Shown here: one piece after another, positions 15,837-19,640 of the stretch
Layout of the letters: each line of letters opens with the position of its first letter
How positions within the stretch are numbered: position 1 is the stretch's first letter
Source: a virus
Virus record (IMG/VR): IMGVR_UViG_3300005511_000100
Coordinates: 1-20,230 of that record
Strand: one strand, 5' to 3'
Length of the DNA: 20,230 nt
Position numbers and translations under genes: made by a program
The notes under the pieces: model-generated
Told to the model about the DNA's origin: nothing
The model's database searches: none
Seen by the model: the letters and a program-made list of their open reading frames with translations, nothing else

Positions 15837-16341
15837 TGGCGGCCTCCCGCGCGGCAATTACGGGGCTCGGCATCGGATAGCTAATCAGTTCCATCAGGGC
15901 CGTCATTTCGCTGATGGTTTTGTGCATGCGCCATCCAATTTCGCGCAGCGCGGCACGCTCCTTCGCATCGATGATGCCGTCCTCTTTGGCAGCCCGCCAT
16001 GCGCGCGACAAGTCGCCAAGTTCCTCATTCAGCTCAAAGAGTTTGTCATGGACCTCGTCGTCTGAAAGGTCGCCAGGTTGAGGCAGTTCACAGAACACGC
16101 CGCCACTCGCTTGCGCGACTGCCTGCGCAAAATGCGTGGTGCCGGCGTAGCGCTGGATCAGCAGTGCGGTATCGACACGCATGCCGCTGCCCTTCACTTC
16201 ATACACCCGTTGTTCGAGCGCGGACTTAGTCAGGCCCAGGGTTGCAGCAGTTCCGGCCCAGCCATGAACCTTGATCATTTCTTGGTATGCAGCTAACAAC
16301 TCCACAGTATCGTCCTTTAGTTCTTGGGTTTCAGATAACAA
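15829..16341 (-). CDS. YmfL-like putative regulatory protein (CII-position)
   Basis: 170 residues from a TTG start at 16341. Residues about 16-55 (AAYQEMIKVHGWAGTAATLG, then LTKSALEQRVYEVKG) form a helix-turn-helix matching the YmfL group of prophage regulators. Its C-terminal part (ALREIGWRMHKTISEMTALM) has the family's 'H-K-T-x-x-E-M/L' helix. It is the second gene after the leftward promoter, following the Cro-like gene, the position of cII in lambda. It may regulate lysogeny or early gene expression; related proteins lack a firmly established role. The ribosome binding site at the TTG is poor, so expression may depend on translation of upstream message; an ATG at 16278 is an alternative but would remove part of the first helix. 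Confidence 0.7.
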   Translation of the reverse strand: MLSETQELKDDTVELLAAYQEMIKVHGWAGTAATLGLTKSALEQRVYEVKGSGMRVDTALLIQRYAGTTHFAQAVAQASGGVFCELPQPGDLSDDEVHDKLFELNEELGDLSRAWRAAKEDGIIDAKERAALREIGWRMHKTISEMTALMELISYPMPSPVIAAREAANV

Positions 16342-16474
16342 AACTTTTATCTACTATTCGCTCACCCCTACTTCACTTCATTCGACTATGCCCACTGTTC
16401 ATGCAGCCGAACTGCACGCCCGCGAACCACCGACGGAAGAGGTGTTTCAAGCACCAAAGCAAGGAAATGGCGAA

Positions 16475-16696
16475 TTACTTCTCTTGGGGATCTGCCGGCG
16501 GCATCCAGATGTCGGGCCTGAGTTCGTGGAGAGACAGCCGCGACTCGGCGAGGACGAGTGCCTTGCACAATTTCGGTCCAGGGCGACGATGCCCGCCGCC
16601 GATCAAGTAGAGGTAGCCCACCGATGAGCCGACGGCAGCTGCCAACGATTCGCGCTCGGCTGGGGTTGCTTGCCTAAGGAAGGTTTTCATGTCCAT
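16475..16696 (-). CDS. YdaS/Cro-like small DNA-binding regulator
   Basis: 73 residues starting MDMKTFLRQATPAERESLAA. Residues 15-45 (AERESLAAAVGSSVGYLYLI, then GGGHRRPGPKLCKALVLAES) form a helix-turn-helix of the YdaS/Cro group, with the typical 'GTSVGYLxxIxGGHRRPxPxL' pattern. The family ends with 'LRPDIWP', seen here as ELRPDIWMPP. In prophages it occurs divergently from the CI-type repressor, as here, and is thought to act as the Cro counterpart that favours lytic growth. The start at 16696 is chosen for the family-like N-terminus; TTG 16702 and ATG 16691 are alternatives. Its promoter -10 box ends only seven bases before this ATG. Confidence 0.85.
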   Translation of the reverse strand: MDMKTFLRQATPAERESLAAAVGSSVGYLYLIGGGHRRPGPKLCKALVLAESRLSLHELRPDIWMPPADPQEK

Positions 16697-16702
16697 AGGC
16701 AA

Positions 16703-16731
16703 ACTTTACCTAAAAGATAAACTTACCGCAA
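16703..16731 (-). promoter_or_regulatory. Leftward early promoter (PR-like)
   Basis: On the minus strand a TTGCGG -35 (16726-16731), 17-base spacer and TAAAGT -10 (16703-16708). The -10 and spacer coincide with an operator copy. The same promoter sequence occurs in the opposite orientation at 17653-17681. The expected transcription start is at or next to the Cro-like ATG. Confidence 0.6.
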
Positions 16732-16771
16732 GCACTGTTTATCTTTTTGGTCATTTATCTTTTCGGTAAAA
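16704..16771. promoter_or_regulatory. Operator cluster with three copies (OR-like)
   Basis: Three copies of a TTTATCTTTTnGGTAAA motif: 16704-16722 (inverse), 16737-16753 and 16753-16771 (direct). They lie between the divergent Cro-like and repressor genes. Spacing and position match repressor and Cro operators. Confidence 0.75.
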
Positions 16772-16797
16772 ACGTTGATCATCCGGGGATGGGACCA

Positions 16798-17535
16798 ATG
16801 AAGAGAGAAGACATCCGGCGTGAAAACGCGCGAAAACTCGCAGCTGATGCTGGCGGGCTGACGGAATTCGCCCGTAAAACCGGGATGGAGAACTCTCAAG
16901 TCAGCCAGCTCATTGGAAAGAACCCAACCAAAAACATCGGCAACATAGTTGCAGCCCGAATCGAGAACGCCTTTGACCTTGTTGAAGGCTCTTTAGACAT
17001 TGCGCCGCAACCCGGGGCAGTCGAGCAATCCGAGATTTCGTCGAACCGCACCGGCGCCGATGCAACTATCTTCCCAGGCGCTCGCCCAATCAGGGTTGAG
17101 GACGAGAATTCGCCACATCTTCACCCGATTCCGAAAGTGACGTTGAAGCTCCAAGCAGGTGTAACCGGTTTTGAAACTGAACCCGATATGCGTGACGGCG
17201 GCACGCTGGGTATTTCTCGTTCGTGGATTGAGCGAAAGGGCTATAACCCTAAAGACCTGGTCGCAATCCAGGTACGCGGTGAAAGCATGGAACCGACGTT
17301 CTATGAAGACGATACGGTCGTCATCAATCTTGCGGACACAAAGCTAACTGACAATGGCGTCTATGCCGTCAATTACGAAGGCGAAGCTGTAGTGAAGCGC
17401 CTTTCTCGAGACGCAGGTCAATGGTGGCTTATGTCCGACAATCCCGATCAGCGCAAATATTTCCGGCGTGCGTGCCAGGGGAATCGCTGCATCATCGTTG
17501 GCCGCGTAGTCCGTCGCGAAGGCGACAACTTCTAG
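16798..17535 (+). CDS. CI/LexA-type phage repressor with S24 self-cleavage domain
   Basis: 245 residues from ATG 16798, preceded by GGGGA eight bases upstream; ATG 16789 is an alternative. Residues about 1-65 are a lambda-repressor-type DNA-binding domain (LTEFARKTGMENSQVSQLIG with a following helix). Residues 110-240 are a LexA-like peptidase: Ser163 in RGESMEPTFYEDD and Lys200 in EAVVKRLSR form the catalytic dyad, and Ala120-Gly121 (KLQAGVTG) is a likely autocleavage site. It would hold the early promoters shut in the lysogen and be inactivated by RecA-stimulated self-cleavage after DNA damage. It is the only rightward gene between the two operator clusters. Confidence 0.92.
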   Translation: MKREDIRRENARKLAADAGGLTEFARKTGMENSQVSQLIGKNPTKNIGNIVAARIENAFDLVEGSLDIAPQPGAVEQSEISSNRTGADATIFPGARPIRVEDENSPHLHPIPKVTLKLQAGVTGFETEPDMRDGGTLGISRSWIERKGYNPKDLVAIQVRGESMEPTFYEDDTVVINLADTKLTDNGVYAVNYEGEAVVKRLSRDAGQWWLMSDNPDQRKYFRRACQGNRCIIVGRVVRREGDNF

Positions 17536-17627
17536 GGCAAATCGCCCGAAACTTCACCTTTCTGGTAAACGCCTTCCCGACTACCGAGATAGATTTGGCT
17601 AAATAGCAACACTTCTGCACGCCGGCA

Positions 17628-17680
17628 ATTTAATCTTTTTGGTAAAAATTACTTGCGGTAAGTTTATCTTTTGGGTAAAG
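17628..17680. promoter_or_regulatory. Operator cluster with two copies (OL-like)
   Basis: Two direct copies of the operator motif, at 17628-17647 (slightly divergent) and 17662-17680. The second is part of the 29-base element (17652-17680) that mirrors 16704-16732 with one mismatch. It lies downstream of the repressor and upstream of the rightward early operon. Confidence 0.75.
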
Positions 17681-17681
17681 T
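17653..17681 (+). promoter_or_regulatory. Rightward early promoter (PL-like)
   Basis: TTGCGG (17653-17658), 17-base spacer, TAAAGT (17676-17681), identical in both boxes to the leftward promoter. The operator copy covers spacer and -10. The first gene starts 23 bases downstream of the -10 box. Confidence 0.6.
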
Positions 17682-17703
17682 TTCTTCATCTAGGCTAACT
17701 ACG

Positions 17704-18099
17704 ATGGAGAAACCAGTGATTGCCACATCATTTTCGGCCGCAATCTCGGCCAAGCTCACCCCCGGGCAGCTAATCAACCAGCTGATCGACGAGGCATTTA
17801 AGCCTTCGTTGAGACGGCTGGAGCGGAGCCCTGAATACGTTAATGGCGCGCGCGCGCTCTTATTGCAGCAGTTCGTCGGCAAGCCATTAGCTTCGCTTTA
17901 CCCATACGGAACCGCTGCAGCGGATGCATTCTTTGCCGGCGTTGAAGAGGGACGAGCAATCCATGCGAGGTATCTTGCTGCGAGACGAATTGGTACCTCT
18001 ATTTCCGGGCTCGCCGGCCTAAAGGGGCACGCCTACATCGCAGCCCGAAACCTGAATAAGCCGGTCGAGCGCGTAATTGATGCCGAGGTGGCGAAATGA
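17704..18099 (+). CDS. Unknown early protein, first gene of PL operon (131 aa)
   Basis: 131 residues from ATG 17704. An in-frame start further upstream (17671) would lie inside the operator and is rejected. The sequence is helical: LTPGQLINQLIDEAFKPSLR, then ARALLLQQFVGKPLASLYPY, and a basic C-terminal part with AARRIGTSISGLAGLKGHAY. No membrane segment, signal peptide or metal-binding motif is visible. It is the first product after repression is lifted from the rightward promoter. In other phages this position often carries host-takeover, recombination or anti-defence proteins, but nothing here identifies a role. The next gene starts within its stop codon (ATGA). Confidence 0.75.
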   Translation: MEKPVIATSFSAAISAKLTPGQLINQLIDEAFKPSLRRLERSPEYVNGARALLLQQFVGKPLASLYPYGTAAADAFFAGVEEGRAIHARYLAARRIGTSISGLAGLKGHAYIAARNLNKPVERVIDAEVAK

Positions 18100-18614
18100 T
18101 TGAGCGCGCACCAGCCATATCAATGGCAACGAGCGCTCTTAGCGATCATGCCGTGGCGCTGATGTCCAGCATGGAAAAACTCCGTGCGGCTGCGACGAGT
18201 GCCGCCGAGCTTTTGCTCCAGGCAGGATTTGCTGGAATGCGCGGTGACACTGCAGACGATCTTCGCGTTGCTATCGTAGTACATGAACATCTGCTGCAGG
18301 AATTCAACATCAAGGTTCGCACCAATACTGGCACGTTGGAATTTCAAACCCAGGCACGCGATGCGGTCAGCGCGGCGACCGCAGCTCTTGCCCAGGCTGG
18401 TGATTCGCCTTGCGGCGTCACCATCACTCCAGCAAATCCAGATCGAGCATCTCTTGCCGCTGCACATCGCGCCCTCAAAGTGGCGGCGCCTCTTGACGAC
18501 GCGCTCAAAGATCCAAGCCTGAGAACTGCATTGCACTCGTATGCCCGGAAGCATCCAGCACGCCGACCTACGACAACCGACTTCAAGTCCCTCGCGGCGA
18601 ACGACCGTGACTAG
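18096..18614 (+). CDS. Unknown early protein, second gene of PL operon (172 aa)
   Basis: 172 residues, starting in the ATGA overlap with the previous gene; an ATG at 18123 is a weaker alternative. It is Ala-rich and mostly helical (MEKLRAAATSAAELLLQAGF; DAVSAATAALAQAGDS), with a short segment TADDLRVAIVVHEHLLQEFN in the first half and a basic C-terminus containing HSYARKHPARRPTTTDF. It has no recognisable catalytic motif or membrane segment. The operon context (early, repressor-controlled) is the only functional clue. Confidence 0.7.
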   Translation: MIERAPAISMATSALSDHAVALMSSMEKLRAAATSAAELLLQAGFAGMRGDTADDLRVAIVVHEHLLQEFNIKVRTNTGTLEFQTQARDAVSAATAALAQAGDSPCGVTITPANPDRASLAAAHRALKVAAPLDDALKDPSLRTALHSYARKHPARRPTTTDFKSLAANDRD

Positions 18615-18624
18615 CCGAAAGAAT

Positions 18625-18903
18625 ATGAACGCATTCAAGAACCATACTTCCATTGTCGCGCAAATGAGCCCGATGCCAGCTGAACAGGTGATCGCCAGCC
18701 TTGTTAGCGAGTTGCTGGCCGCCGGTCAAATACTAAACGCGCTACATCACTATTCGCCGATGTCTTCGCTGCTGCATGCCATGGCTGATTTGCAGCAGCG
18801 CAACATCATCGAACAAGACCTTTTACGCGTCCCAGAGCGCAAAGCAGCTCTAAGCATGGCCAAGAATTTCGGGTCCACAGCTTTCAAGAAGGAGAATCGG
18901 TAA
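18625..18903 (+). CDS. Unknown small early protein, third gene of PL operon (92 aa)
   Basis: 92 residues from ATG 18625, with GAAAG nearby as a weak ribosome binding site. A GTG at 18607, overlapping the previous stop, is an alternative and would add six residues. The sequence is helical: PMPAEQVIASLVSELLAAGQ, ILNALHHYSPMSSLLHAMAD, LQQRNIIEQDLLRVPERKAA, with a basic C-terminus. It might form helical dimers. No family recognised. Its stop overlaps the next ATG (TAATG), so the four genes are one translational unit. Confidence 0.6.
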   Translation: MNAFKNHTSIVAQMSPMPAEQVIASLVSELLAAGQILNALHHYSPMSSLLHAMADLQQRNIIEQDLLRVPERKAALSMAKNFGSTAFKKENR

Positions 18904-19175: not shown

Positions 19176-19640
19176 TCAGGCAATAATCTCTCCAGAATCT
19201 AAGTATGCTTCTGCGATTTTCGCAAATCGCTTCATTTGCAAGCTATCTTGAGTAGTCTTCATATCTGCAATCTTATGCGCGTCAGGCTCCGGGAGCACAT
19301 AGATTAGTAGAAATTCAGTATTTTTTCCGTTTGCAACATACACAAGGACGCGATTGCTGGTCTTTTTCGCTCCTTTCCCATTGTGGACGCCGCGGTCATA
19401 GGCTTTGTCCCAGCTTTTAAGTGCAAGCTGATCGGTAATTGGGACTAAGTGAACGTGTCGAAGTGCATATTGCTGAAGACCAACGGCGGGCGTCCTATAA
19501 CCGCCATCTTTTCCAAATAAGTAGTGCCCGTATTCGTCGCCTGACTTCCATTCAATGAAGCCATCGATCAGCTCGTCTGCATCATCCGGTCCCTGAGCGT
19601 CTAAAAGCGCCTTAAGGGCTTTGGTTATTTCAACCTTCAT
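19176..19640 (-). CDS. YafO-family type II toxin (putative ribosome-dependent mRNA interferase)
   Basis: 154 residues. The family pattern is clear: EYGHYLFGKDGGYRTP (36-51, YafO 'FGRD..Y'), LRHVHLVPI (60-68, YafO 'H-I-H-L'), NRVLVYVANG (96-105), LLIYVLPEPDAHKIAD (111-126, YafO 'L-P-E/P-H-x-x-A'), and a C-terminal MKRFAKIAEAYLD helix (136-148). YafO inhibits translation by ribosome-dependent mRNA cleavage. Classical YafO is about 130 residues; this one is longer in the middle (KAYDRGVHNGKGAKKTSN). It is convergent with the PL operon. No recognised antitoxin is adjacent: the upstream small gene is separated by about 100 bases and a terminator. It may be a lysogenic (moron) gene. Confidence 0.8.
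   Translation of the reverse strand: MKVEITKALKALLDAQGPDDADELIDGFIEWKSGDEYGHYLFGKDGGYRTPAVGLQQYALRHVHLVPITDQLALKSWDKAYDRGVHNGKGAKKTSNRVLVYVANGKNTEFLLIYVLPEPDAHKIADMKTTQDSLQMKRFAKIAEAYLDSGEIIA

Follow-up and report, generated by a model that had tools for sequence, protein, structure and literature searches.

The window analysed here is an entire virus record of 20,230 bases (IMG/VR IMGVR_UViG_3300005511_000100), and it carries on its plus strand a gene for a CI-like repressor (16789-17535, with an alternative start at ATG 16798; PF00717, 1.4e-19; phrog_4, 5.8e-37) whose product combines a helix-turn-helix with an S24 self-cleavage domain. Residues A120-G121, S163 and K200 of this protein are invariant in 16 aligned repressors; we take A120-G121 to be the cleavage residues and S163 and K200 the catalytic ones. 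A structure model of low confidence (mean pLDDT 61.8) gave the lambda repressor as its top fold match, with LexA also among the best, and its four N-terminal helices reach a pLDDT of about 80-87; in view of the low mean, use of the model was restricted to these helices and to the class of fold match. To the left of the repressor gene, on the minus strand, stands a gene for a Cro-like lytic regulator (16475-16696; phrog_35 transcriptional repressor, 1.8e-09), whose ATG (16694-16696) lies six bases past a -10 box, and to the left of this a CII-like gene (PF06892 and phrog_101), the two standing in lambda order. The first gene of the right operon (17716-18099, +) starts with a GTG after the GGAG at 17706-17709 (an alternative ATG lies at 17704); it gave no Pfam or PHROGs match, and a homologue, 55-74% identical, occupies the same place in the related loci L004-L008. 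The right side holds three small genes without assigned function and an excisionase-like gene (phrog_1300). At the right end we also note a YafO-like toxin gene (19176-19640, -; PF13957, 8.5e-09), a protein similar to which was found by eye at 7283-7819 in L084, a locus of Duganella sp. Root336D2.

The repressor gene is flanked by a mirrored element, which the first-pass annotation had described as two inverted 29-base copies with a single difference, each holding both promoter boxes and one operator. Our alignment agrees, since 16704-16732, set against 17652-17680 in reverse complement, is identical to it at 28/29 positions. The arms were extended by a repeat finder to 41 nt at 90% (16701-16741 and 17643-17683), and the arm alignment gives an inverted match of 31/32 over 32 nt. 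With both flanks subjected to 2000 dinucleotide shuffles, the maximum score obtained was 13 as compared to 29 for the best local alignment observed, which places the mirror far beyond chance. The boxes, read by eye as TTGCGG-17-TAAAGT in each arm with one operator between them, make up a putative PR-like promoter directed into cro (16703-16731, -), overlapping the mirrored copy at 16704-16732, and a putative PL-like promoter directed rightward (17653-17681, +), overlapping the copy at 17652-17680; both are conserved in relatives. Just past the right -10 box an inverted repeat, GTTTCTTCATC / GATGGAGAAAC, at 17680-17690 and 17704-17714, overlaps the GGAG preceding the right gene, and a comparable dyad was seen by eye in L004-L006.

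The putative operator is a 17-bp sequence, TTTATCTTTTNGGTAAA, located between the promoter boxes of each arm. An operator scan placed the left O1 (TTTATCTTTTAGGTAAA; 16705-16721, -) between the left promoter boxes and the right O1 (TTTATCTTTTGGGTAAA; 17663-17679, +) between the right ones. Two further sites lie on the left, or Cro, side, namely O2 (16738-16754, +; 2 mismatches), centred 43 bases before the repressor start codon (ATG 16789), and O3 (16754-16770, +; 0 mismatches), base 16754 being common to both; on the right there is one, O2 (17630-17646, +; 1 mismatch), 33 bases from the right O1. The earlier count of three operators on the left and two on the right is therefore borne out at 0-2 mismatches to TTTATCTTTTNGGTAAA, and to it we add a candidate weak third right operator (17553-17569, +; 3 mismatches) whose position is not conserved. 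At three mismatches or fewer the window contains 6 matches as compared to 0.02 expected from shuffles. When 18 records were scanned over their whole length, matches with at most two mismatches were confined to the putative immunity region, and a reversed control pattern gave 2 matches in total in the same scan.

Relatives of the repressor were collected from virus records (80 loci kept), from a set with one genome per species (17 loci) and from the genomes of one family (141/392); relatives of Cro added 9 loci and a promoter-operator scan 15 stretches, of which 7 came from new records. The comparison set (n=19) consists of the window and 18 related loci with the same operator, 11 of which were picked by protein similarity (L004-L008, L036, L139-L142 and L164) and the other 7 by operator pattern, so that in those seven one side is present by construction. 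Redundant copies were left out (e.g., L084, L104 and L135 for L004), and the near-identical L141 and L142 were both counted. Absence of the mirror from close relatives had been proposed as evidence against the first reading, and what we found instead was operators on both sides in all 18 testable loci: 11/11 of those picked by protein, 6/7 of those picked by operator, and the window. The seventh operator-picked locus, G411 (L163), comes from a record ending 1.7 kb past the left operators and is outside this count.

In the 18 loci both arms preserve the operator and the TAAAGT box almost without change and, in most cases, the TTGC of the -35 region; the six-base stretch separating the -35 region from the operator varies, and beyond the operator and promoter boxes there is no conserved mirror. 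The spacing of the sites is tightly kept, with right O1 and O2 32-34 bases apart in 18/18 loci, left O1 and O3 48-50 bases apart in 19/19, and left O2 and O3 16 bases apart in all 16 loci in which O2 was found; a match to left O2 within 4 mismatches was absent from 3/19. The O1-to-O1 distance runs from 946 to 4629 bp in the 18 loci and is 2407 bp in lambda. In 19/19 Cro adjoins the operator triple, with the repressor directed away from it. Between the repressor and the right operators L007 and L008 have an extra reading frame, and L158-L162 and L164 carry longer cargo. The cargo, at L162:2257-4058, L159:953-2610 and L164:4148-4993, was observed to include a DUF7946/DUF7947 protein as well as a DUF3037 protein that weakly matches a candidate defence family (PDC-M66B, 2e-06).

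No promoter was listed in 16200-18000 when this stretch was scanned for the sigma-70 consensus, which the boxes match poorly; it is on their conservation that we base the promoter call, and the poor match would count against promoter strength. The cro ATG lies 6-7 bases past TAAAGT in 19/19 loci, and a GATCAT-like hexamer stands 6-7 bases ahead of the repressor ATG in 18/19, the pattern having failed in L150; in the window this hexamer is GATCAT (16777-16782, +), presumably the -10 box of a repressor maintenance promoter, with a similar hexamer in relatives. Given start codons so close to -10-like boxes, the divergent cro and repressor mRNAs are probably leaderless. Such a case is described in phage PY54, where both the cI and the cro mRNAs were leaderless by RACE (PMC4488713); PY54 resembles the window by description, and differs from it in having a single Cro operator.

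On the strength of these sequences we consider it very probable that the region governs immunity in a temperate phage and belongs to the lambda OR/OL type, with an operator sequence of its own. The likeness to lambda OL/OR that had been remarked on at first pass holds for the layout: in both, operators flank the repressor gene, O1 lies inside each outward promoter, and cro and a CII-type gene stand on one side with an early operon on the other. The divergent cro with a CII-type activator on the same side, a feature of membership in this kind, is present here. Genes between the repressor and the far operators, as seen in some relatives, are paralleled by rexAB between cI and OL, and the cargo genes at this rex position are possible exclusion genes. 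Even the distance from O2 to the repressor start is similar, at 43 bases in the window and 42 from the OR2 centre to the cI AUG in lambda. What differs is the 17-bp operator sequence and the operator spacing (33/16 in the window vs 24/23 in lambda). Lambda also has three operators on each side, whereas the window has three on the left and, on the right, two plus the weak unconserved site. Three per side were not taken to define the wider kind, as N15 is classed among the lambda-related phages and likewise has two OL sites. The OL/OR design itself is already well known from lambda, and it is the operator sequence that is the region's own.

The near-identical promoters, put forward earlier as a contrast to lambda, do not amount to a difference in kind. 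The arms of the window agree at 28/29 positions as compared to 22/29 for lambda PL/PR, lambda OL1 and OR1 agree at 16/17, and within the related loci the 31-base arms match at 21 to 30 positions. The window, at 30/31, stands at the top of these 18 loci, and its striking identity comes down to a functional core together with a six-base spacer whose agreement is due to chance or to a local copying event. As for origin, the mirror would arise simply from the same promoter-operator unit pointing outward at both sides, making an inversion unnecessary.

The arrangement suggests how the switch might operate. In the prophage a single repressor would close both early operons, since each outward promoter has an O1 between its -10 and -35 boxes, and we infer, with good support, that one CI repressor shuts both. 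The PR-like promoter would drive cro, CII and the replication genes leftward, and the PL-like promoter would drive early genes, including the excisionase-like gene, rightward. Left O2 appears to be placed for activating the repressor's own promoter and O3 for shutting the same promoter off, as O3 would cover its presumed -35 region. The Cro-like protein probably occupies the same operators, by which the lytic state would be locked, and DNA damage would free both promoters via RecA-stimulated self-cleavage of CI. Cooperativity between the sites may not be the same as in lambda, because the spacing differs and left O2 is missing in 3/19 loci.

It might be asked whether the operators are paired mainly so that repressor bound on both sides loops the DNA, strengthening repression and tuning the level of repressor, a reading that we find possible and somewhat doubtful. 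Lambda CI oligomerises through its S24 domain, and the CI of the window has a domain of this kind. Operators on both sides in every testable locus also speak for a loop, as does the layout, matching that of lambda OL/OR, whose CI loops about 2.3 kb (PMC5880393). However, the separation of the two O1 sites varies fivefold between loci, and the pair is kept in 7/7 testable loci whose repressor has no S24 domain (the eighth, L163, is cut off), which makes the pair independent of S24-mediated octamers. Repression of two outward promoters accounts for the pair without any loop, so looping, though possible, is not needed to explain it. A loop of fixed length is ruled out by the range of separations.

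Alternatively, a recent gene conversion in this phage might have copied one arm onto its counterpart and so made the two near-identical, a reading that we judge to be unlikely. The window's rank at the head of the 18 loci, six spacer bases included, would fit such an event, as would the greater likeness of left and right operators within loci than between them (16.28/17 vs 15.83/17; permutation p 0.0008), but shared descent of the loci can yield the operator result, six bases can agree by chance, and spacer agreement within loci was not above the between-loci level (p 0.13). Only the right arm would have changed, as the left spacer GGTAAG also occurs in L004 and L005. Finally, the suggestion that the inverted repeat is a recombination site flipping the repressor gene is very improbable: at 41 nt and 90%, or 31/32 over 32 nt, it is long enough in principle for rare homologous recombination, but a flip between the arms would put Cro beside the operator pair and Cro is beside the triple in every locus (0/19 inverted), conservation confined to the operator and promoter boxes, with six variable bases intervening, fits protein-binding sites and not a recombination site, and the 9 ORFs searched around the switch include no recombinase gene except the excisionase-like one.

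Returning to the two-sided repression by one CI protein, we note that the operator sequence appears tied to the repressor that reads it. Repressors with the same operator have SQVSQ(I/L)IG..P.KNIGN in common, with slight variation in L164 (SQVSH) and L140 (SQVNQ), and L009 and L012, which differ in this segment as a whole, have other 17-mers common to their two flanks. Among 47 more distant loci, which are not independent of one another and were covered to at most 1200 nt downstream, a flank-shared 17-mer rose above shuffles in 18 at p <=0.01 and in 29 at p <=0.05, and in the other 18 none did so at p <=0.05; the paired layout is thus common in the repressor family. Judged from these comparisons, the operator sequence changes along with the DNA-binding domain.

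The repressors behind the one operator set are of two types. An S24-type repressor is found in 11/19 loci, by Pfam in the window, L158, L161, L162 and L164, by 79-85% identity in L004-L008, and by likeness to L158 in L159. The other 8/19 have a short type of 136-176 residues without S24, of which L036, L139, L141, L150, L160 and L163 gave no Pfam match, L140 was assigned by the same PHROGs repressor families and L142 by a translation identical to that of L141. A ribbon-helix-helix gene (Arc/HicB type) lies between the repressor and the right operators in 6/8 short-type and 0/11 S24-type loci; its profile was built from five of the six positive loci, which were thus mostly detected with a profile derived from themselves, and the independent part of the result is the absence from S24-type loci. 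The same operators served by repressors with and without S24 suggest one immunity specificity with two induction modes. Whether a single specificity, made up of DNA-binding domain and paired operators, is common to cleavable and short repressors, with the DNA from the end of the DNA-binding part up to the right operators serving as an exchangeable slot for repressor tail and cargo genes, is to us an evenly balanced question. The Gifsy phages of Salmonella have non-cleavable repressors that are released by antirepressors (PMC3121763), and antirepressor switching of this kind is a possible model for the 8 short-repressor loci; the window's own repressor differs in having S24.

Among other known systems, N15 is described as having two OL sites in addition to three operators that lie between its repressor and cro genes (PMC4488713), and differs in that OL overlaps the repA promoter in a plasmid prophage, the likeness again being by description. 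The lysis-lysogeny locus of the Variovorax phage VarioGold matches the window in gene order, with a CI-like repressor 37% identical to ours, a Cro-like and a CII-like gene and a primase gene; by eye, both flanks carry sites of the TAGCNNNNGCTA type, and they share a 17-mer above shuffles. Its operator sequence differs from that of the window, and the word “operator” is absent from the VarioGold paper (PMC9658991). When 16475-18700 was used as a DNA query against the phage collection no match was returned, and in the open-licence literature we found no account of switches from these hosts, nor of operators mirrored in this way. The nearest relatives with named hosts, from the search of one genome per species, are in Duganella, Janthinobacterium and Massilia.

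This study adds to the known range of the lambda OL/OR design a family of soil-bacterium phages, those with nearest host-assigned relatives in Duganella, Janthinobacterium and Massilia, and the clean operator consensus should make immunity groups predictable from sequence. If one specificity is indeed common to cleavable and short repressors, such phages would be mutually immune and yet answer different induction signals. The swapping of repressor tails behind a single operator set would make the coupling of immunity and induction testable in homoimmune phages that differ in how their repressor is switched off.
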